Source: Lolium rigidum (taxonomy: Eukaryota > Streptophyta > Magnoliopsida > Poales > Poaceae). From it: DNA of 64,000 bases. Under the pieces are notes generated by a model. That model ran no database searches. It saw only the letters and a program-made list of their open reading frames with translations, and had not been told where the DNA came from. Position numbers and translations under genes: made by a program. Below are positions 24,727 through 53,843 of the stretch, piece after piece. Each line of letters starts with the position of its first letter. Within the stretch, counting starts at the first letter, position 1. The stretch covers positions 207,600,254 through 207,664,253 of the forward strand of contig NC_061509.1 of the NCBI RefSeq assembly GCF_022539505.1, read 5' to 3'.

Positions 24727-24939
24727 CGGTGGCGAAATTTCAAACGCGGTGACCGAATTCATCCCGCCGAGATTTCGCCGTCCCACGCGAGCTCGCGCCA
24801 TCTCCCGCGGTGGCTCTGCGGGAACGCGGTATTCCCGAGTTCTGCCGGAACAGGGGTGGCTCACTAGAAATGGCCGAACCAAGCGCTTCTTTAGGGTCTG
24901 GGCCGAGGATGCTTTAAGAAATGATTGGTATGCTCAATT

Positions 24940-25425
24940 GTAGATTTACACAAAAATAACCCAAAACTGAAAGAAAAGCACAGACTGACCCTCCGGCGAA
25001 ACTATTTCACCAATCTAACCCTTTTGTGTGGCGCCCCTCCCACGGGCGCCACACATGCCCATGTGGCGCCTCTGGCTCTGGCGCCACACACCCATCCGAC
25101 GTGGCCCATCGACGCTGAGCTGGTGACCCCGATCCGACGTGGCAGCACGAGTGGCGCCTCTGTGGACGGCGCCACACTTTGAAAGTGTGGCGCCCCTGGC
25201 AGGGGCGCCACACATTCACTTAAGTTTGGGCGCCGCGCGCGCCCAGCCCGACCCTTCTTCTTTCTTTCTCTTCTTCTCCCCCTCCTCCTCAACCCGGTTC
25301 TCTCTCTCCTCCCTCTCCCCCCACCAAATCCACCACCAAATCGTCAGATCTGTCCGTGGAGATCGTTCCCCATCCATTTGTCAAGGTAATCTCCTTCAAA
25401 TCTTCTCCATTCATCCACTAATTTC
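24940..25425 (+). repeat. Left TIR of the MULE, with four GTGGCGCC hairpin modules
   Basis: The inverted copy is at 29850-30331. Modules of the form (T)GTGGCGCC-spacer-GGCGCCAC(A) lie at about 25026-25054, 25061-25090, 25151-25177 and 25185-25213. A C/T-rich 5' UTR-like stretch follows, then a GT donor after 25384. Confidence 0.88.
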
Positions 25426-25711
25426 ATAGATCGGGCTAGATTTGGACATGAACCCTAGACATGTTTTTTTTTTTTGTGCACTCTATATTGTATTGTTTGT
25501 GTTGGAGATGGTAGCCTCATGTATGCATGTGTTTGAACCATAGATTTGTAGAAATCTACATATGAAATTTCACATGTATGTGTATGAACTCTATGTATGT
25601 ATGTGTATGTATGTGTATGAACTCACATGTATGCCTAGTATTTGTGATGGAGTAACTCATATTTGTTAGTTGAATGGATCGTAATATGGTTCAAAAATGT
25701 AAACATGTAGG

Positions 25712-26201
25712 ATGGCCGGTGCCGGTGGACGGGGAAGGGGCGGCCGCCGCGGTCCTCGGGCGCCCCGGGCCGGGGAAGGGGCCGCCGCGGTGGAGCAGCA
25801 AGGGCCCCACGATCACCGTCACCTGCATCCTCCTCGTCTTCGCATGACAAACGCTGCTTCGAGTTCCTCCTCCGCATCGACGACGACCCACTCGGCATCA
25901 AGCGGCTACCGGACAAGTTCGCCGAGTTCGTCGACGGCCACGAGCCGGCACACTTGCAGCTACGGGAGGCTAGCTGCAACTTCTGCCGCTGGTCCGTGGA
26001 GGTCCTGTTCGACGGGCAGGGCAAGATGTACCTGCACACGGGGTGGGACAAGTTCGCCCGTGACCTCCACCTCGAGCCCGGCTGCCAGCTCACCTTCTCG
26101 TACGAGGGGACGGCGACATGATCGTCAAGGTGTTCGACGACACCGCCTGCCGTGTGCACTACCCCCACACCGGCGAATCCGGCTCCGACACCGATATTTA
26201 G
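25712..26201 (+). pseudogene. B3 DNA-binding-domain protein encoded by the MULE, frameshifted
   Basis: B3 domains bind DNA and are typical of plant transcription factors. After a glycine/arginine-rich start (MAGAGGRGRGGRR at 25712), the frame changes between about 25780 and 25850 into a clear B3 fold: FEFLLRIDDDPLGIKRLPDK, FAEFVDGHEPAHLQLREASC, WSVEVLFDGQGKMYLHTGW, DKFARDLHLEPGCQLTFSY. A second single-base shift near 26110 leads into MIVKVFDDTACRVHYPHTG and the stop at 26199-26201. The acceptor just before the ATG (ACATGTAG) fits a 5' UTR intron begun in the left TIR. It occupies the place of mudrB in MuDR but is unrelated to it. As read it is a pseudogene; sequencing error in this GC-rich stretch is possible. 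Confidence 0.82.
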
Positions 26202-26376
26202 ATCGTCGAGTGTTGTCAACTCTATCTTCGTTGCTTCGTGTTGTTTGAATGCTTTCTTAAATTGTATGAAACTATGTGCTACGATGTTAGGTTTGATGAT
26301 GTTATGTCCATGATGTGTGTACAAAATGGTTGTTGATATGATGTGTGTATGACATAGCTTTTGACATGATGGGAGT

Positions 26377-26823
26377 TTTGTTGGAATATGGTAGGATTTT
26401 CGATGGTTTTAACACATGTCAATGAGTGGCGCCCTTCCCACTGGCACCACATTGCACAGTGTGGCGCCCGTGGCATTGGCGCCACACATGCATGTCTAAT
26501 TTCCCAAAACATACTGTAAGACAAATCGTCTGGGACTTAGCCGTTTTGGCGAGGCTCTTTGTGTGGCGCCGATGCCACGGGCGCCACACAAGCATGTGTG
26601 GCGCCGGTGCCACGGGCGCCACACAAAGAGGGTCGCCAAAACGGCTAAGGACTTATCGTCCGGAGCCCCTGGATGTTTTCGACCAAATAGCTCATATAAG
26701 TTGGCATGTGTGGCGCCGATGCCACGGGCGCCACACTTGCACTTGTGGCGCCAGGTGAGAAGGGCGCCACACATGGACTTGTGCTAAAACCATGAAAAAT
26801 CCTACCATATTCCAACAGTTTTG
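26377..26823. repeat. Long inverted repeat (hairpin) of ~440 bp made of GTGGCGCC modules
   Basis: Outer arms TTGGAATATGGTAGGATTTT (26381-26400) and its near-complement at 26795-26813 enclose six hairpin modules (26425, 26459, 26561, 26595, 26706, 26743). An intermediate arm CTTAGCCGTTTTGGCGA (26537-26553) is mirrored near 26634-26650. The centre of symmetry is about 26594. It lies between the 3' ends of the convergent B3 and coiled-coil genes. A read-through transcript from either TIR would fold into long double-stranded RNA. ORFs called here are translation artefacts of the repeat. Confidence 0.88.
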
Positions 26824-27006
26824 ACAACAAGAACATTGCACCTGAATATGTACCATACATTGACACAACATAATGGTTCAAATGACAAATAAGGTTCGAC
26901 GACATCAAGGTTTCAATTACAATAAGGTTCAACGACACGAAGGTTCGAGAAGATCAAGGTTCGGACAACATAATGGTTCGACAACAAGAACATAGCCAAA
27001 GGGACA

Positions 27007-27511
27007 TCAACTGCGTCGCAAAGGCTCCCTCCCCCTTGCCTTCTTCTTCTTAGCTTCTTCGACCAATTCTTCCTTCTCCCTTAAGTCACGAGCCAACCGA
27101 ACGACCGAATCGAAGAAGTGGTGGCGCTCCTCCGTCTTTGCGGCTTCCGCTTGAGCTCTCTCCTCCTTGATGCGTTCAGCCTCCCTAGCCACCTCCTCTA
27201 GGTGCATCCTATTGGCCCTCTCCCTCGCAATTTGCTCAAGTTGGCAGCTCCTCGGGAATTTTATCCGTGCCTCGCGGTCCCGTTCGGCCTTCAGCTTGGC
27301 ATTCCTCCTCTTGTGGAACAATATGTATTCCTCATACTTGTTTTTGCATACGGGCACTCTCCGCCATCTTCTTGTCTTCCTCCTCCTTCTTCTTCCTCTC
27401 TAGTTCTTCCTTCTCCTTCTTCCGCACCGTCCTTACCGCCTCCTCCCAAACGGACTCCTCCTTCTCATTGCCCTCCCATGCTCCCTTCCCCTTGGTGGGT
27501 TGAGTTGCCAT
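27007..27511 (-). pseudogene. Coiled-coil accessory ORF of the MULE, one frameshift
   Basis: It starts MATQPTKGKGAWEGNEKEE and runs through a very charged stretch (KKEKEELERKKKEEEDKKM). A frame change near 27365 leads to CKNKYEEYILFHKRRNAK and a helix-rich tail ending GREPLRRS. The heptad-like K/E pattern predicts a coiled coil. It lies 65 bp downstream of the transposase stop on the same strand, so it may be a separate exon set of the same transcript or a second gene. Function is unknown. I know similar proteins from grass MULEs only as unnamed ORFs. Confidence 0.65.
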
Positions 27512-27576
27512 ACCTGTAAACCAAATTGAAAAACCAAAGTTAGTCATGGAATATGAAAATAGAAAGTACAATGCAA

Positions 27577-29643
27577 TTAGTAACTTCGAGACACATATGG
27601 ATAAGGCCCCGCTAGGTATCGTAGCATACTAGCACCGCGACGGCCACCTCTACTAAGCCCTACGTGAATCCTTTGTTGCCTTGGAGCTTGTCGCCATTGT
27701 GGTTGATGCCTTGAGGCTTGTTGCCTTGGAGCTTGTTGCGTAGGAGCTTGTTGCCGTTGGGCTTGTGTGCTTGGAGCTTGTTGACGCGTTTGGGTTGGAG
27801 GAGGTTGACGCGTTTGGCTTGGAGCTTGTTGACGCGTTTGGGTTGGAGGAGGTTGACGCGTTTGGCTTGGAGGAGGTTGACGCGTTTGGCTTGGAGGAGG
27901 TTGACGCGTTTGGCTTGGAGGAGTTTGACGCGGTTGGCTTGGAGCTTGTTGGCTTGGGGTTTGTTGGCTTGGAGGTTGATTTGAAGCTTGTTGGCTACTT
28001 GATGCTTGACTTGTGCTAGCATCATTGCCCTTTGATTTTTTGCCGGATGTGCACTTCCTTTTATTGTGGCCCTTACTATTGCAGGATCCACAATTAGTTG
28101 GCTCGCGAGCTTCTTGGAATAACTTCGTTTCCGGAATGACCCCATCTATCCATATCTCCGTGATACCTCTTCGTCTTTCTTCTTCCACGTTTCACAACCT
28201 TCCATTCCGGATCTGGCCAAACTTGCACTCCATGATACTCCGGCCATTGTGATTGATCCAAGTAAGGACAAAACCTTGGAGCCCATGTCCTCTTTGTGGC
28301 TTCGATTGAGAACTCGGACTTCCGAACGGTGAGCGGGTTATTGTAGTCGACACGTCTAGTGCGTGCCGCTGTTAGCAAGTGGGAGCAAGCCAAATGAAGC
28401 AAAGAGGGCCTCCTACATGTGTATTCACATGTCTTTAGGGACACACGGAAAGCCCGGCCTCCGTGTTGGACACCACCTTGTGTGGTGCCTCCCGGCTCAT
28501 TCACTTGGTAAACCCAGTCAACATTATCATAACATGTAGCCATTTGGGAGTCGGCCTTCCTCGCCTCGAAAATCCATGAACTCTTGAACCTTCTTTGGGA
28601 ACTCGGCATTCAAAGCAATTTCCTTCTCCGTTTCATCGGTGTAGTTCTGGAAATAGACATTCAACTTCTCGAATGTGTATTGAATGATTGCCGTCACGGG
28701 CAATGCACGGACACCCTTCAAAACATTGTTGAAGCACTCGGCCATGTTGCTTGTCATTTGGCCATATCTCCTCCCATCCTCATCATAAGCTCTCGCCCAC
28801 TTTGAATTAAATACGAGGTGTCTATGAAGAAACTCTTGACCACCCGCGTTGAGGTCTTTGTGCTTCAGCAAGCCGTTGTATAGGTTTGCGAAGCGGCGCT
28901 CCGAATAAGCGAGGCAACAATCTTGAAGAAGGTCAGACAACTCTTTGCTCTTGCATGCCCGGTAGAAGTTTGCACAAAAATGCCTCATGCACCATCGGTG
29001 ATGCAAGGGAGCATGCCCGGGAATTGGAACCTCCACCGCATTGAGAATTCCTTGATGACGATCGGAGATGACACACACTTCCTTTGAGGGTGGTATGACC
29101 CTCGTCCTCAATATATGGAAAAACCATTGCCAGTTATCATTGTTCTCAATCTCTACCAATGCAAAAGCTAATGGTACTAAATGGTTGCTTGCATCACTTG
29201 CTATTGCCACCAATAGTGTGCCCTTGTACTGACCGGTCAAGAAGGTACCATCCACGGCTATGACGGGCCTACAATGTTCGAATGCCCTCGTGCATTGCTG
29301 GAATGATCAAAATGCACGGTGAAATACCCTCACTCTTTTACCATCATACAATGTCATCTTGTGACCCGGCCACCGTCTCCTTGTAAATGGACCAACGTTG
29401 CTCGGAGTTGATACGCATTATCTTCCAACGGGTGTGCATTCCAAACCCCACATTATGCCTTCCCTCTAGCTCAATACCATCATTTGGCTCATTCCAATTC
29501 AACTCAACCCTAACTTGTGCTACCACCTCCGCAAAGCTAGGGCTAACGTCAAACACCAAGTCAACCTCTTCCGGGTCCGGCTCTATGTTTCCCTTCAAGT
29601 AAGCATCCTTGTCCACATGATGAACATGAACAATTCTTTCCAT
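27577..29643 (-). pseudogene. MURA-type Mutator transposase, internally deleted and frameshifted
   Basis: The N-terminal start MERIVHVHHVDKDAYL (29643) follows a likely splice acceptor. A PB1-like region runs to KETVAGSQDD, then jumps near 29340 directly to the catalytic domain, so a few hundred residues (including the MuDR DNA-binding region) are missing. The catalytic domain shows AVDGTFLTGQ (first Asp), VCVISDRHQGI (second Asp), CMRHFCANF and SNMAECFNNVLKG (Glu). A TGA replaces a conserved Trp near 29310. Frame changes occur at about 28560 and 28190. A SWIM zinc finger (CEYTCRRPSLLHLACSH) and a CCHC knuckle (CGSCNSKGHNKRKC) follow, with a Gln/Pro-rich tail. It cannot encode an active enzyme. 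Confidence 0.88.
27780..27950 (-). repeat. 24-bp coding tandem repeat in the transposase tail
   Basis: About seven units translate to QTRQPPPS / QTRQQAPS on the minus strand, a low-complexity Gln/Pro tail after the CCHC knuckle. Confidence 0.85.
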
Positions 29644-29849
29644 CCCCCTAGCATAATGGGAACAACACATACACACATGTGTTCATTAGATACCATAATC
29701 AACATAATCTACCGATACAAACTAGCACACTACCATTTCTTCTACTTCAACAACCCTAACATCCAACCAAATCCATCTCCACCCTCAAATCAACCAAATC
29801 CACATCTAGGGTTTCACATATAGATTGGAGCAAATACACAAAATCAATG

Positions 29850-30331
29850 GATGAAAAGAGGGGAAACGGAGGAGATTACCTCAAGCAACGAGTTGGGAAC
29901 GATCTCCACGGACGGATCCGACGATTTGGTGGTTGATTTGGGGGGGGGAGAGAGGGGGAGAGAGAAAACCGGGCGCCTTTGGAGGAGAGAAGAAGAACAG
30001 AGAAAGAAAGAAAGAAGAGGGTCGGGCTGGGCGCGCGCGGCGCCCAAACTTAAGTGAATGTGTGGCGCCCCTGCCAGGGGCGCCACACTTTCAAAGTGTG
30101 GCGCCGTCAAGAGAGGCGCCACTCGTGCTGCCACGTCGGATCGGGGTCACCAGCTCAGCGTCGACGGGCCACGTCGGATGGGTGTGTGGCGCCAGAGCCA
30201 GAGGCGCCACATGGGCATGTGTGGCGTCCGTGGGAGGGGCGCCACACAAAAGGGTTAGATTGGTGAAATAGTTTCGCCGGAGGGTCAGTCTGTGCTTTTC
30301 TTCCACTTTTGTTATTTTTGTGTAAATGGCC
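29850..30331 (-). repeat. Right TIR of the MULE
   Basis: Inverted copy of 24940-25425, with four GTGGCGCC modules (about 30061-30089, 30097-30122, 30183-30210, 30217-30247) and the presumed promoter and 5' UTR of the transposase. Confidence 0.88.
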
Positions 30332-30659
30332 TGCTCAATTAGGTAATCAAACGGGAAAATGCTGGACCGATGCGAATCAAGAGCGCCCACGTTACCAACC
30401 CGCCCTTCTTGAATGATATCTTTTGCCCATGGTCGATATCATTTCGCAGATTTATTCAGTGCTACTGTGCTAGTCAGTAGTCAGCACAAAGGAGTGGGAA
30501 TATACCAGTCGCTACTATTTGGCCCTCCGTTCCCGATGGACGGTGAGGATTCGTTCCAGCCCCGCCCGTGCTCCTCCCTTCTCCAGCAGGACGCCCAGAA
30601 CCCTCTCCCCTCTTCTTCCTCCCGCCCACCGCCTCCCAGTCCCAACCAAGCAACCGCCC
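30332..30659 (+). promoter_or_regulatory. Promoter/5' UTR region of the lipase gene
   Basis: AT-rich DNA grades into a C-rich leader (CTCCCGCCCACCGCC) before the ATG at 30660. The MULE ends only 320 bp upstream of this ATG and may contribute regulatory sequence. No clear TATA box was picked. Confidence 0.4.
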
Positions 30660-43289: not shown

Positions 43290-44931
43290 TCCTCTCCGAC
43301 CTGTCCGCCTTTCCTTTCTTCCATTCCCGTGCATCAATCGGTAGTAGGCATCATTGTGGAGAGCCTTGCTCACAATGAAAGGCCCTTCCCATGGCGGGGA
43401 AAGCTTGTGCCTGCCTTCAGCTGCGCTGCACTAGGCGTAGCACTGGTCTCCTTCCCGGAAAACTCTCGGTTAACCTTCCTGCTGTGATAGCGTCCGAGGT
43501 TCTCGCTGGTAAATGGCTGTTCTTGCCAAGGCCAGCTCTCTTGCTTCTTCTAGCAAGTCCACATCGTTCTCTCGAGCTTCCTTTACCTCTTCTTCGTTAT
43601 ATAGTTGCACCCTTGGTGAATCATGGAGAATGTCGGTTGGTATGACCGCTTCGCTCCATAAACCATGAAAAATGGAGTGTATCCGGTTGACCGGTTTGGA
43701 GTAGTTCTTATGCTCCACAGCACTGATGGTAGCTCATCGAGCCAACACCCCGGCGATTTTTCTACCGCATCGATGAGTCTCGGTTTGATACCGGAGAGCA
43801 CCAAAGCGTTTGTTCTTTCCACTTGGCCATTGCCTTGTGGGTGTGCGACTGAGCACAAATCCAACCGGATATTGTTGTCCTCACAAAATCTTTTGAACTC
43901 ACCTTGAGCAAAGTTTGTGCCATTGTCGATGATGATGCTATGTGGGTATCCATACCGCAAAATGACATCTTTTAAGAATTTAACCGCTGTGCGCCCATCA
44001 CACTTTGCGATGGGTTTGACTTCTAGCCACTTGGTGAATTTGTCCACCATAACCAAGATGTGGGTCATGTTTCCCCTTGCTGTTTTGAATGGGCCAACCA
44101 TGTCTAGGCACCAAACCGCAAACGGCCAAGTCAATGGTATTGTTTTCAAGCCGGAGGCTGGGGTATGATTTTGCTTGGCGTACCTCTGGCACCCATTGCA
44201 TTTTCTTACCATATCCTCCGCGTTTTCCAAAGCTGTTGGCCAATAGAACCCATGCCGGAACACCTTTGCCACCAGCGCCCTTGAGGAAGCGTGATGTCCA
44301 CACTCTCCTCGGTGAATCTCCTCGAGCATTTCCTTTCCTTCTTCCGGTTCCACACATCTTTGGAGGACACCGGTGACACTTCTCTTGTACATCTCGCCAT
44401 TGATGATAGTGTAAGCCTTGGACCTTCTTTGGATCCTCCTTGATTCATTTTCGTCAACTGGCAAGGTGCCGTTGACTAGGAATTCCTTAATAGGTTTAAC
44501 CCATGATGGTGTCTCCCGAACTAGGAACACCGGTACGTCTATGTCCATGTTGTCCACCAGCATTGTTTCTTCCGGTAGCGCAGCAGCGGCTGATCTTACC
44601 GGAACAGTCCCCGAGTTTACCGGAACAGTCCCCGGGTTTCCTTCGTCGATATCCATTGGTACAATGTGTGACTTCGGTACAAAAATTGATTCCGACTCCG
44701 GACTTGGCTTGATTGATGGTACTCTCAGGTGTGCCAAGGCTATTCCGGGAGGAATTTCTTGTCTGGATGAGCCCAGCTTGGACAAAGCATCCGCAGCCTC
44801 ATTTTCTGCACGCGGTACATGGTGAAACTCACACCCTTCGAAGAAGCCGGCAATCTTTTGCACGTGAAACCGGTACGAGGCCATGTTGGCATCTTTTGCG
44901 TCCCAATCTCCGGAACATTGCTGCACCACAA
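43290..44931 (-). pseudogene. Ty3/gypsy pol fragment: RNase H end and integrase
   Basis: The minus strand opens inside RNase H (KIAGFFEGCEFHHVPRAENE, AADALSKLG). The integrase follows: HHCC zinc finger (HRGECGHHASS...CNGCQRYAKQ) and core with Asp in WCLDMVGPF, Asp in IIIDNGTNF and Glu in GNGQVERTN. After VYGAK a frame change near 43655 leads to AVIPTDILHDSPRVQLYNEE and LEEARELALARTAIYQ. The C-terminal chromodomain-side region is degenerate to about 43290. It is truncated at its N side by the junction at 44931. Confidence 0.9.
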
Positions 44932-45485
44932 GATATGAATCTCCATAGCATTTTCAATTTGTCTAGACCTAGCAATTGTAGCATCTAGAAAAGTTCCCAA
45001 TGAACCACTATCATCAAGCACAGCAGAAATATTATCAGTATTATGAGAGTTTTCAGATTCAGCAGAAGTACCGACATTTGAAGCATGTGGCGGTGAAACA
45101 AGTTTATCAATCACGAGATGGTGAATCAAGAGCAGCGAGAGGTACTCGAGTTGTACCTTTTCTTGTAGTGGATGGTAATATGGCGACCTTAGTATCGCGA
45201 GGTTTACCCATGATGGAGAATTTGCAGCGAACAATATCAATCCAAGTGAACTTCCAAATAAAGCTATGCTCCCCGGCAACGGCGCCGGAAAATAGTCTTG
45301 ATGACCCACAAGTATAGGGGATCGCAACGAGTCTTCGAGGAAGTATTACCCAATTTATTGATTCGACACAAGGGGAGACAAAGAACACTTGAAAGCCTTA
45401 ACAGCGGAGTTGTCAATTCAGCCGCACACTGGAAACGGACTTGCTCGCAAGAGTTTATCGATAGTAACGGTTTTATAGCGATAGC
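44932..45485 (-). mobile_element. Fragment of another gypsy element: gag start, leader and LTR end
   Basis: On the minus strand the LTR 3' end (...ACTTGTGGGTCATCA, ending at 45299) is followed by a GGCGCC-containing primer-binding region, a leader, and a gag start MGKPRDTKVAILPS. After a stop, NVGTSAESENSHNTDNISAV and LDATIARSRQIENAM follow. The family is a high-copy Triticeae gypsy. It is cut on the left at the junction with the other pol fragment and on the right by the assembly gap. Confidence 0.75.
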
Positions 45486-50166: not shown

Positions 50167-53100
50167 TGCAGAATCTAAAAGGCATGAATTGGAATCCAGG
50201 GGGTTTTGGAGATACTGCAAAGCATTTGTTTGTAAAAGAGGCAATTAGGGAACATAAGTTTGATTTCTTAGCCTTGTTGGAGACTGGGAGATCAAACTTT
50301 TCTATACCTTTTCTAAATCAGCTTGCAGCGGGATATAATTTTTCGTGGTTTTGTTTACCCCCTCATGGTAGGTCTGGAGGTATTCTAGTGGGAATAAATT
50401 CAGATAGCCTACAGGTGATAAAGGTAACCACGGGGGATTTTTGTGTCAAACTTCATATCAAATGTAAAAGAGATGGTTTTGAATGGATTTTTGTGCCAGT
50501 TTATGGGGCTGCCCAAGATTTGCACAAGGGAGAATTTTTAGCAGAATTAGTGCGTATATGTGAATCCGAAACATTACCTATGTTGGTAGGTGGTGATTTC
50601 AATATTATTCGGGAAATGGAAGAAAAGAATAATGATAATTTTAATGCTAGATGGCCCTTTGTGTTTAATGCAATTATCGAACATTTAAACTTAAGGGAAA
50701 TTGCGCTCTCAGGAAGACAATATACGTGGGCGAGTCGTAGAAACGAACCTACATATGAGAAACTAGATAGAGTTCTAGCATCAATTTCTTGGGAACAGAA
50801 ATTTCCTTTAGTGACTGTTCGTGCATTAACCAGGGCAGAGTCCGATCACACACCGATTCTCATTGACTCAGGGGTCAAAGCTCATTTGGGTAATATCTCA
50901 AAATTCTCTTTTGAGCTACATTGGTTGAAACAGGAGGGTTTTTTTTGAGATGATACAAAAGGAGTGGAATTCGGTGTCTAATGGTCTTAATTCTATTGAC
51001 GTTTGGTTAAATAAATTAAGACATATTAGAAAATTTCTCAAAGGCTGGGCAAAAAATCAAAGTGGGAAATACAAAAAAGAAAAAAAGAAATTAATACAAA
51101 TTATAGATCTTTTGGACATTAAAGCAGAAATTAATCCTCTGGAGCCGCATGAGAGAGAGGAGCTTCGAAAAGCCAATGAAGGTTTGCGTAAGTTGAGAAG
51201 GGAATAAGAATCTAAGTGGGCTCAACGAGTGAAAGTTAAACATATCCAGGAAGGGGGGAATAATACAAGGTATTTTCATTTGATTGCAAATGGTAAACAC
51301 CGGAAAAATAAAATATTCCAATTAGAACAGCAAGAAGGGACAATTGTTGGAGAAGACAATCTAAAGGTGTATATCACTGAATTTTATAAAAAATTATTTG
51401 GGTCACCAGAACCAACTAATATTTCATTAATTGAAGGAATGGTGCATGACATTCCACAGATTTCAGTTAATGAAAATGAAATTCTAACAAATCCTTTTAC
51501 TGAAGAGGAGGTGTTTGAGGCGATATCACAAATGGAGCATAATAAAGCTCCAGGACCTGATGGTTGCCCGGCGGAGTTTTACCAAAATTTTTGGAACGTA
51601 ATAAAGTTAGATTTGATGGCACTATTTAATGAGTTAAGTACAGGAGAGTTGTCTCTTTTCAAACTCAATTTTGGGGTCATTACCTTATTACCCAAGAAAG
51701 AGGACGCAGTACAGATCCAACAGTATAGGCCTATTTGCTTACTGAATGTGTGTTTCAAAATTTTTACTAAAGTTGGGACAAATAGAATAACGGGGATTGC
51801 CCCAAAGGTTATTAAACCCACACAAACAGCGTTCATGCCGGGGAGAAATATTTTGGAAGGGGTTGTCATTCTGCATGAGACGATCCATGAACTTCATACT
51901 AAGAAATTGGATGGGGTATTATTTAAGATTGATTTTGAGAAAGCTTATGATAAAGTTAAGTGGTGTTTCCTACAACAAACCTTGAGAATGAAAGGTTTTG
52001 CTACGGAATGGTGTAGCTTAATACAGAAATTCGTTCAAGGTGGGAGTGTGGGAGTTAAAGTAAATGATGACATTGGTCATTATTTTCAAACAAAAAAAGG
52101 TTTGCGGCAAGGGGACCCTTTGTCCCCAATGTTATTCAACATTGTTGTAGATATGCTTGCCATCTTGATTGAACGTGCAAAAAATGATGGTCAAATCAGA
52201 GGGCTTATTCCTCATCTTGTTGAGGGGGGTATCTCTATACTACAATATGCCGACGATACAATCCTTTTTTTGGAACATGACTTACTTAAAGCTGTGAACA
52301 TGAAGCTAATTCTATGTATTTTTAAAGAATTATCGGGACTTAAAATCAATTTCCATAAAAGTGAGTTATTCTGCTTTGGAAAGGTAAAGGATGAGGAGGG
52401 CGAATATAAACAGATCTTTGGATGTGATGTTGGATCTCTTCCCTTTCGATATTTAGGTATCCCAATCCATTACAGAAAACTGAGAAATTCTGATTGGTAT
52501 CCAGTTGAATCACGGTTTGAGAGCAAACTAGGATGCTGGAAAGGAAAGCTTTTATCTTATGGGGATAGATTGGTGCTTATTAATTCAGTTTTAACCAGTT
52601 TACCTATGTTCATGTTATCCTTTTTAGAGGTACCTGTTGGGGTAAGGAAAAGATTGGATTTTTATAGATCTAGGTTTTTCTGGCAATCTGATGAAAATAA
52701 GAAAAAGTATAGGCTTACAAAATGGAATATTGTTTGTCGGCCTAAAGATCAAGGTGGTTTAGGTATTGAGGTACTTGAACTAAAAAATAAGTGCTTATTG
52801 AGTAAATGGTTGTTTAAGTTGCTCAATGAGGAAGGGGTATGGCAGGAATTATTACGTAATAAGTACTTAAGGCATAGGACTTTATCGGCAGTACAATTGA
52901 AGCCCATAGATTCTTCATTTTGGAAGGGTTTAATGCGAGTAAAGGATGAGTTTTTTGATAGAGGTTTTTTTAAATTGGTAATGGAAGGAGTGCTCATTTC
53001 TGGGAAGACGTGTGGTTAGGGAAAACCCCTCTGGCAAATCAATATCCGTCTTTATATAATATTGTGCGTCACAAAAATGTAACGGTAGCTCATGTGTTAG

Positions 53101-53843
53101 CCCAAATCCCACTGTATATTAGTTTCAGAAGGGCATTACTGGGGAACAGATGGAATTCATGGTTGCAGTTATGCCAAATCCTAATGACGGTAAATTTAAA
53201 TGATGAGAGGGATCACTTTGCTTGGGGATTGACATCCAATGGTAATTTTACGGTAAAATCTATGTATGAAGATCTTATGAGCGATCATACCCCATACTTG
53301 AGAAAATATTTGTGGAAGGTTAAAGTTCCTTTGAAAATTCGGATTTTTATGTGGTTCCTTAGTAATAAAGTTTTGTTAACTAAAGACAATTTAGCTAAGC
53401 GGAATTGGAACGGGTGTATGAAGTGTGTTTTTTGTGGTGCACAGGAAACTGCTGAACATCTTTTCATTGCATGTCCTTTAGCTAAATTGCTCTGGCGTAC
53501 GGTTAATTTCACTTTCGACCTTCCACCTCCAACCAATATTACAAATATATTTGGAAATTGGTTAAATGGAGTAGATAGACAATCCAAAGCTTTCATCCGT
53601 GTTGGGGTTTCTGCTTTATGTTGGTCTATTTGGAGGGCAAGAAATGATATTATCTTTAACAAAAAACAATCTTTTCATTATTTGCAGGTTATTCACATGA
53701 TGGCTCAGTGGGTTCAGCTATGGGCTCTCCTTTCACCGGAGGGAGTACGGGATGCCATGGTTTCTGGATGCACACGGTTCCTGATGGTCGCTCAGGATAT
53801 CTTGTGCCAGGCTGGTTGGCGTCATGCTAGTAGGCTACAATGA
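50166..53843 (+). pseudogene. LINE ORF2: endonuclease and reverse transcriptase, frameshifted
   Basis: APE-type endonuclease (MNWNPGGFGDTAKHLF, VGGDFNIIREMEEKN, AESDHTPILI) runs to 50948, where a T-homopolymer shifts the frame. TAA at 51205-51207 interrupts the linker. Reverse transcriptase follows: HNKAPGPDGCPAEFYQNFW, YRPICLLNVCFKIFTK, FKIDFEKAYDKV, GLRQGDPLSPMLFN, and the catalytic LQYADDTILF near 52240-52270. A one-base loss near 52980 precedes the zinc-finger RVT region (VPLKIRIFMWFLSNKVLLTK, CVFCGAQETAEHLFIAC). As written it makes no single enzyme. Confidence 0.92.

Follow-up and report, generated by a model that had tools for sequence, protein, structure and literature searches.

A B3-domain gene in a Mutator-like element of Lolium rigidum, a probable accessory gene accompanied by an array of inverted dyads

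Does a B3 gene lying inside a Mutator-like element (MULE) of ryegrass belong to the element as a standing accessory gene, or is it cargo taken from the host? The question is raised by a 64,000-nucleotide stretch of Lolium rigidum DNA (GCF_022539505.1, NC_061509.1:207,600,254-207,664,253, forward strand), here called the window, whose positions serve as coordinates throughout. It contains a MULE of 5,392 bp (24940 to 30331) with a perfect 9-bp target site duplication (TSD) on both sides. Behind its left terminal inverted repeat (TIR) lies a B3 gene on the forward strand, which converges with a MURA-type transposase gene on the reverse strand behind the right TIR. The element with its TSD and TIRs, the B3 domain, a multicopy and constrained B3 family, and an array of sequence dyads are directly observed. 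With moderate confidence, we read this element as a defective copy of a Poeae MULE family, with its closest named sequences in Lolium, in which B3 is a standing accessory gene whose protein may act on the dyads.

The TSD of about 9 bp, the long TIRs, and a PF10551 transposase domain place the element in the MULE superfamily; long TIRs are usual for MULEs, though some lack them. The TIR arms, about 485 bp long, match at 90.4% over 490 alignment columns (24944-25424 versus 29841-30327), and their outer 306 bp are 96% complementary. The initial annotation had described a complete MULE with 480-bp TIRs and a 9-bp TSD, which holds for the ends but not for the genes, as the B3 gene is broken and the transposase gene is deleted in part. 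Between its ATG and its stop codon, the B3 gene switches frame twice. The transposase is about 350 residues short, the equivalent of residues 100 to 448 of its Lolium relative P0046 being gone; PF03108, the MuDR DNA-binding domain, lies in that stretch and is present in P0046, P0048, and P0069. An in-frame stop and additional frame breaks add to the damage. Because both reading frames are broken, neither an intact B3 protein nor an intact transposase could be made from this copy, and the view of a complete working element was rejected on these grounds. The copy is a defective, internally deleted, nonautonomous relic, without the intact PF03108-bearing transposase of an autonomous MULE. It is not a Pack-MULE (host gene, no transposase) either, as transposase remains are present.

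The convergent arrangement of B3 and MURA-type genes behind the two TIRs, as first described, was borne out by domain matches on opposite strands: PF02362 (+; E = 3.5e-9; 36.9 bits against a gathering cutoff of 30.1) and PF10551 (-; E = 3.5e-22). The closest neighbor of the B3 sequence in a tree of its relatives is P0001 (94% identity over 89 residues), for which the predicted structure is a B3 fold with At1g16640 as the nearest known structure. The window B3 and the transposase are each 94% identical to their nearest Lolium relatives. Both TIRs contain the same splice donor, AGGTAATCTCC, and the predicted acceptors stand 1 and 4 bases before the ATGs of the B3 gene (25712) and the transposase gene (29643), respectively, so that the two genes appear to be built alike. 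The earlier claim that the B3 frame begins directly after an acceptor paired with a donor in the TIR thus agrees with the sequence signals (donor 25386, acceptor 25710). If these pairs are used, the TIRs would supply the promoter and first exon to both outer genes.

Three features had been overlooked in the initial annotation, namely ORF2 (a further open reading frame), a palindrome of 439 bp where the convergent genes meet, and a set of 14 dyads. ORF2, the product of which is perhaps a coiled coil, is fused to the transposase in the Lolium gene models P0046, P0049, P0057, P0058, P0059, and P0063 and is therefore regarded as part of the element family. Tandem repeats with periods of 15, 45, and 24 bp (27673-27944) were also seen toward the 3' end of the transposase gene, where the product is rich in glutamine and proline.

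The B3 sequence belongs to a large family. A single-sequence search with the B3 core gave 45 relatives (23 from Lolium perenne or L. multiflorum, 1 from Puccinellia, and 21 mostly metagenomic), and a profile search gave 203, the best 120 of which stand for 598 member sequences. Many relatives are full length, at about 145 to 175 residues, with a Gly-Arg-rich N-terminal arm and an acidic C terminus. All 23 sequences of a first alignment (A1; 22 of the 45 matches plus the window sequence) match PF02362 at E values up to 0.1. Among the matches listed, the L. multiflorum members occur on all seven large contigs with dispersed locus tags (judged by eye), which is the pattern expected of transposed copies. 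The idea that the B3 sequence is an isolated pseudogene of this one copy, which would have undone the original proposal, was rejected, since the family has a high copy number and many of its members are full length. The single short domain, the arm and tail just described, and the high copy number set the element B3 apart both from proteins of the REM class, such as At1g16640 and VRN1, and from P0255/P0256, a host-like Lolium gene that has few members (3 and 4) and contains a pair of B3 domains. A tree was built from 117 of 137 B3 proteins (profile span of at least 75 and length of at least 110) plus the window sequence. The window B3 sits in a 27-row set that includes Puccinellia, and 62 of the 115 inner branches are not resolved. 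A long branch separates P0255/P0256 from the other 116 rows; as this pair was chosen beforehand and imposed as the outgroup, the tree gives no direction of descent. The two-domain protein may nevertheless resemble the host donor of the element B3. Apart from this, a second short-B3 clade, only distantly related, comprises P0251, P0252, and P0241 of L. multiflorum (clusters of 129, 127, and 56 members) and may represent another transposon family that carries the TF-B3 gene annotation.

To gauge constraint, 70 of the 71 proteins of a second alignment (A2; P0254 omitted) were compared with neutral codon simulations on their own tree, with stops forbidden and mean identity matched (0.561 versus 0.562). 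The model includes neither indels nor a CpG effect, and the comparison is made at the protein level, distinct from the ratio of nonsynonymous to synonymous substitution rates (dN/dS). Between-column variance in conservation exceeded that of every one of the 300 simulations. The number of columns with 90% identity or more was 27 against a simulated mean of 17.7 (9 of 300 simulations reached 27), and 26 against 15.2 in the B3 domain alone (6 of 300); a first neutral run of 100 simulations had a maximum of 28, above the observed 27. Mean conservation, matched by design, was not separable from neutral, as 184 of 300 simulations equaled or exceeded the observed value (89 of 300 in the domain). Taken together, these protein comparisons support selection on the B3 family over its history, and part of the signal may predate the capture of B3.

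The noncoding DNA of the element carries an array of short sites. The 10-mer GTGTGGCGCC, with at most one mismatch, occurs 31 times in the window against 2.2 expected, and 28 of the 31 occurrences fall inside the element. The sites make up 14 dyads of the form GTGTGGCGCC-N9-GGCGCCACAC (at most two mismatches per half), 13 with N9 and one with N10, arranged as seven doublets 35 to 36 bp apart. All 14 lie in noncoding element DNA and none in genes; a single half-site with one mismatch (28480) is within the transposase gene. Among nine aligned dyads the half-sites are 94 to 96% alike, the cores 51%, and the flanks 29 to 38%, although the half-site identity is inflated, as dyads were picked by half-site, and duplication through the TIRs and the palindrome leaves only about seven independent dyads. 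Despite this, the fixed spacing and variable cores have the look of dyads bound by a protein. Motifs of other B3 classes are few in the element (CATGCA 2, TGTCGG 0, and CACCTG 2; their complements 3, 1, and 1). Given the dyad array, the suggestion made at the outset that B3 serves TIR recognition or self-regulation is plausible.

The dyads could have other users, and it is possible, at a rather low probability, that B3 is a standing gene with another task, for instance a part in integration like that proposed for mudrB, and that the dyads are sites for the transposase or a host factor. Eight of the 14 dyads are in the TIRs, where MURA binds in MuDR, and TGGCGCC resembles the E2F consensus; the six others occupy the spacer, next to the 3' gene ends and far away from the element termini, a place unexpected for transposase sites. 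The spacer itself folds as a single 439-nucleotide hairpin (-303 kcal/mol, versus -151 on average in 100 shuffles; z = -23), and inspection by eye places the 7-mer AGTTTTG at each of its two edges. This would suit a nested foldback element or a shared hairpin terminator unrelated to B3. We consider that explanation quite improbable, as the spacer dyads agree with the TIR dyads in half-site, in length of core, and in the 35-bp spacing of doublets, and an edge repeat of only 7 bp is possibly due to chance.

Evidence from other loci bears on whether B3, TIRs, and transposase travel together, and here protein models were compared. P0155 of L. multiflorum begins with transposase sequence that is broken up by a peptide encoded by TIR sequence (match to the right TIR at E = 7.8e-7), so that TIR and transposase occur together at a second locus. 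In P0042, a B3 tail 96% identical to that of the window over 28 residues is followed by a piece of an RNase H1 N-terminal domain, and nine of its peptides can be read as AGTGGCGCAC repeats, a number reached by none of 10,000 shuffles, which points to a related motif in the vicinity of another B3 sequence. P0041 and P0042 (L. multiflorum, two large contigs) have an identical junction from B3 tail to RNase H1 N-terminal (Cauli_VI) domain, and a related element may carry both domains together. Virus contigs scanned with the B3 protein, its alignment, and a TIR pattern, and prokaryote contigs scanned with the alignments of B3 and of the transposase, gave no confirmed relative, as expected there.

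Several observations weigh against B3 as a standing gene that acts on the dyads. In the present copy neither main gene is intact, B3 domains of the VRN1 type show little sequence preference in DNA binding, and dyads within TIRs could equally be transposase sites. ORF2 is 76 to 92% identical to Lolium models, less uniform than B3 and the transposase. No second copy combining TIR, B3, and transposase was seen among the protein models; none of 14 L. multiflorum transposase tags, each representing a protein cluster, adjoins a B3 tag among the matches listed (by eye; the nearest are 11 apart). A fusion of B3 with a TIR peptide occurs in 0 of 257 proteins, the TIR peptide patterns matching P0155 only, and the 45 B3 proteins contain no convincing TIR-coded peptide (one weak match, P0026 at 0.032). 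Among the best 120 of 179 transposase matches, relatives at about 65 to 70% identity occur in barley and Brachypodium, and no protein named from either is among the 45 B3 matches, so that B3 may not be general in the transposase clade.

Part of this would be expected if a MULE had simply taken a copy from a large Lolium B3 family, as cargo without a role, the relatives being other captures or the host family. Host-gene capture is described as common in MULEs in the relevant part of PMC13317346. Ordinary capture fits the broken genes, the lack of a second TIR-B3 copy, and the absence of barley and Brachypodium from the B3 matches. It does not account for a B3 gene that uses a TIR donor and has an acceptor adjoining its ATG, as the transposase gene does, nor for the equal identity of B3 and transposase to their Lolium relatives or for a dispersed, high-copy, constrained B3 family, and the host-like P0255/P0256 is few membered and a long branch away (as a chosen outgroup, without direction). 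On balance, we regard capture as unlikely. The earlier claim that B3 is an integral gene and no random capture gains from the multicopy family and from a gene structure that mirrors that of the transposase gene, and it is held back by the missing second locus. We infer that other copies of this element also carry the B3 gene.

Compared with known systems, the element is not MuDR proper, in which mudrB is the second convergent gene: the second gene here encodes a PF02362 B3 domain, and mudrB is not known to be a B3 protein. An extra ORF2 on the transposase strand and a palindromic spacer with dyads are further differences. Likeness to maize MuDR lies in the long TIRs, 9-bp TSD, two opposite genes, and MURA-type transposase (as outlined in PMC9168764 and PMC6446971). 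The element has the type I layout of Abermu, with the transposase gene (ORF1) and ORF2 on one strand, ORFR opposite, and a 9-bp TSD; in the Abermu sections of PMC9168764 this layout occurs in Triticeae and Poeae (Puccinellia), and the function of ORFR is called unclear. Barley Abermu differs in its TIRs of 138 to 145 bp and length of 8.2 kb, a comparison by description rather than by sequence (PMC9168764, same sections). VANDAL elements likewise encode a DNA-binding accessory protein, VANC, which in the accounts consulted (PMC5735166, PMC10398659) binds short motifs arrayed mainly in noncoding element DNA and counteracts silencing; the 14 of 14 noncoding dyads resemble this as a functional analogy only. 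VANDALs differ in having degenerate TIRs and a motif arrayed in a single orientation, without dyads, and the anti-silencing activity of VANC is demonstrated in Arabidopsis, whereas that of the element B3 is inferred (PMC5735166, PMC10398659, same accounts). As proposed for B3 here, the extra domains of MULE groups with PMD, FAR1, SET, OTU, or DUF are standing and often antisense to the transposase (in the pertinent part of PMC6446971), but B3 is absent from Table 1 of that paper.

Accessory genes or domains in MULEs are already known (mudrB, VANC, PMD, FAR1, SET, OTU, and Ulp1, the last from part of PMC13317346), and the B3 variant is regarded as new because the literature search gave no such element: no report of a B3 gene within a MULE was found in the open-access literature by titles and abstract openings of the top-ranked matches ("B3" alone being unsearchable), and "B3 domain" has no occurrence in the main texts of PMC9168764, PMC5735166, PMC13317346, and PMC6446971. 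The available part of a report on MULEs with tandem TIRs (PMC3310237) contains nothing on B3. A sugarcane B3 gene beside a Mutator-type transposase (PMC3418495, in the passage on that locus) was rejected as a precedent: it lies next to the domesticated gene MUSTANG, in a region that is also conserved in sorghum and rice, and does not belong to an element.

If B3 is indeed a standing gene, a full-length member of the family probably has a gene for a MURA-type transposase, ORF2 on that strand as well, and, convergent with them, a gene for a short B3 protein. This last gene would probably be an ancient derivative of a host B3 gene, retained since then as an accessory gene. The most likely target of the B3 protein would be the noncoding DNA of the element itself, at the GTGTGGCGCC dyads of both TIRs and the spacer, where it would keep the element transcribable against silencing, as VANC does, or aid the transposase. 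By analogy with VANC, binding of the dyads by the B3 protein is put forward tentatively, and an anti-silencing role is more doubtful. We speculate further, at low probability, that a grass MULE lineage converted a B3 domain into a self-recognition or anti-silencing protein for inverted GTGTGGCGCC dyads, an independent counterpart of VANC with a different fold, and that B3 clades and motif variants (such as AGTGGCGCAC beside the P0042 B3) codiverge. A standing B3 gene would mean that many ryegrass TF-B3 gene models are transposon genes and not host regulators. It would also provide a second independent DNA transposon with a DNA-binding accessory protein and an array of likely sites, open coevolving self-recognition of the VANC-and-motif kind to direct tests in grasses, and show one way in which a host transcription factor becomes an accessory protein of a transposon.

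Table 1. Parts of the B3-carrying Mutator-like element, in window coordinates
Feature	Position	Strand	Remarks
Left TSD, TGCTCAATT	24931..24939		Identical to right TSD
Left TIR	24940..25424	+	With four dyads and splice donor of B3 gene
Four dyads, left TIR	25026..25213		
Predicted 5' untranslated region intron, B3 gene	25386..25710	+	325 bp; donor in TIR; 1 base from acceptor to ATG; from sequence signals only
B3 gene	25712..26200	+	Two frame changes; B3 core 25864-26109
Imperfect palindromic spacer between convergent genes	26379..26817		439 bp
Six dyads, spacer	26424..26772		Five N9, one N10
ORF2, lysine/glutamate-rich	27007..27511	-	Frame broken near 27340; behind transposase
MURA-type transposase remains	27577..29643	-	MULE domain ~28968-29264; internal deletion at ~29347-29360; frame breaks and in-frame stop
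Predicted 5' untranslated region intron, transposase gene	29648..29879	-	232 bp; donor in TIR; 4 bases from acceptor to ATG; from sequence signals only
Right TIR	29841..30331	-	With four dyads and splice donor of transposase gene
Four dyads, right TIR	30060..30247		
Right TSD, TGCTCAATT	30332..30340		Identical to left TSD

Elsewhere in the window, a Myb/SANT-like open reading frame (PF12776; 23352-24104, reverse strand) lies 0.8 kb to the left of the element. Remains of retroelements comprise a gypsy-type sequence (PF04195; 37323-38882), an integrase/RNase H region (43586-44953), and a reverse transcriptase with zf-RVT (51208-53840).

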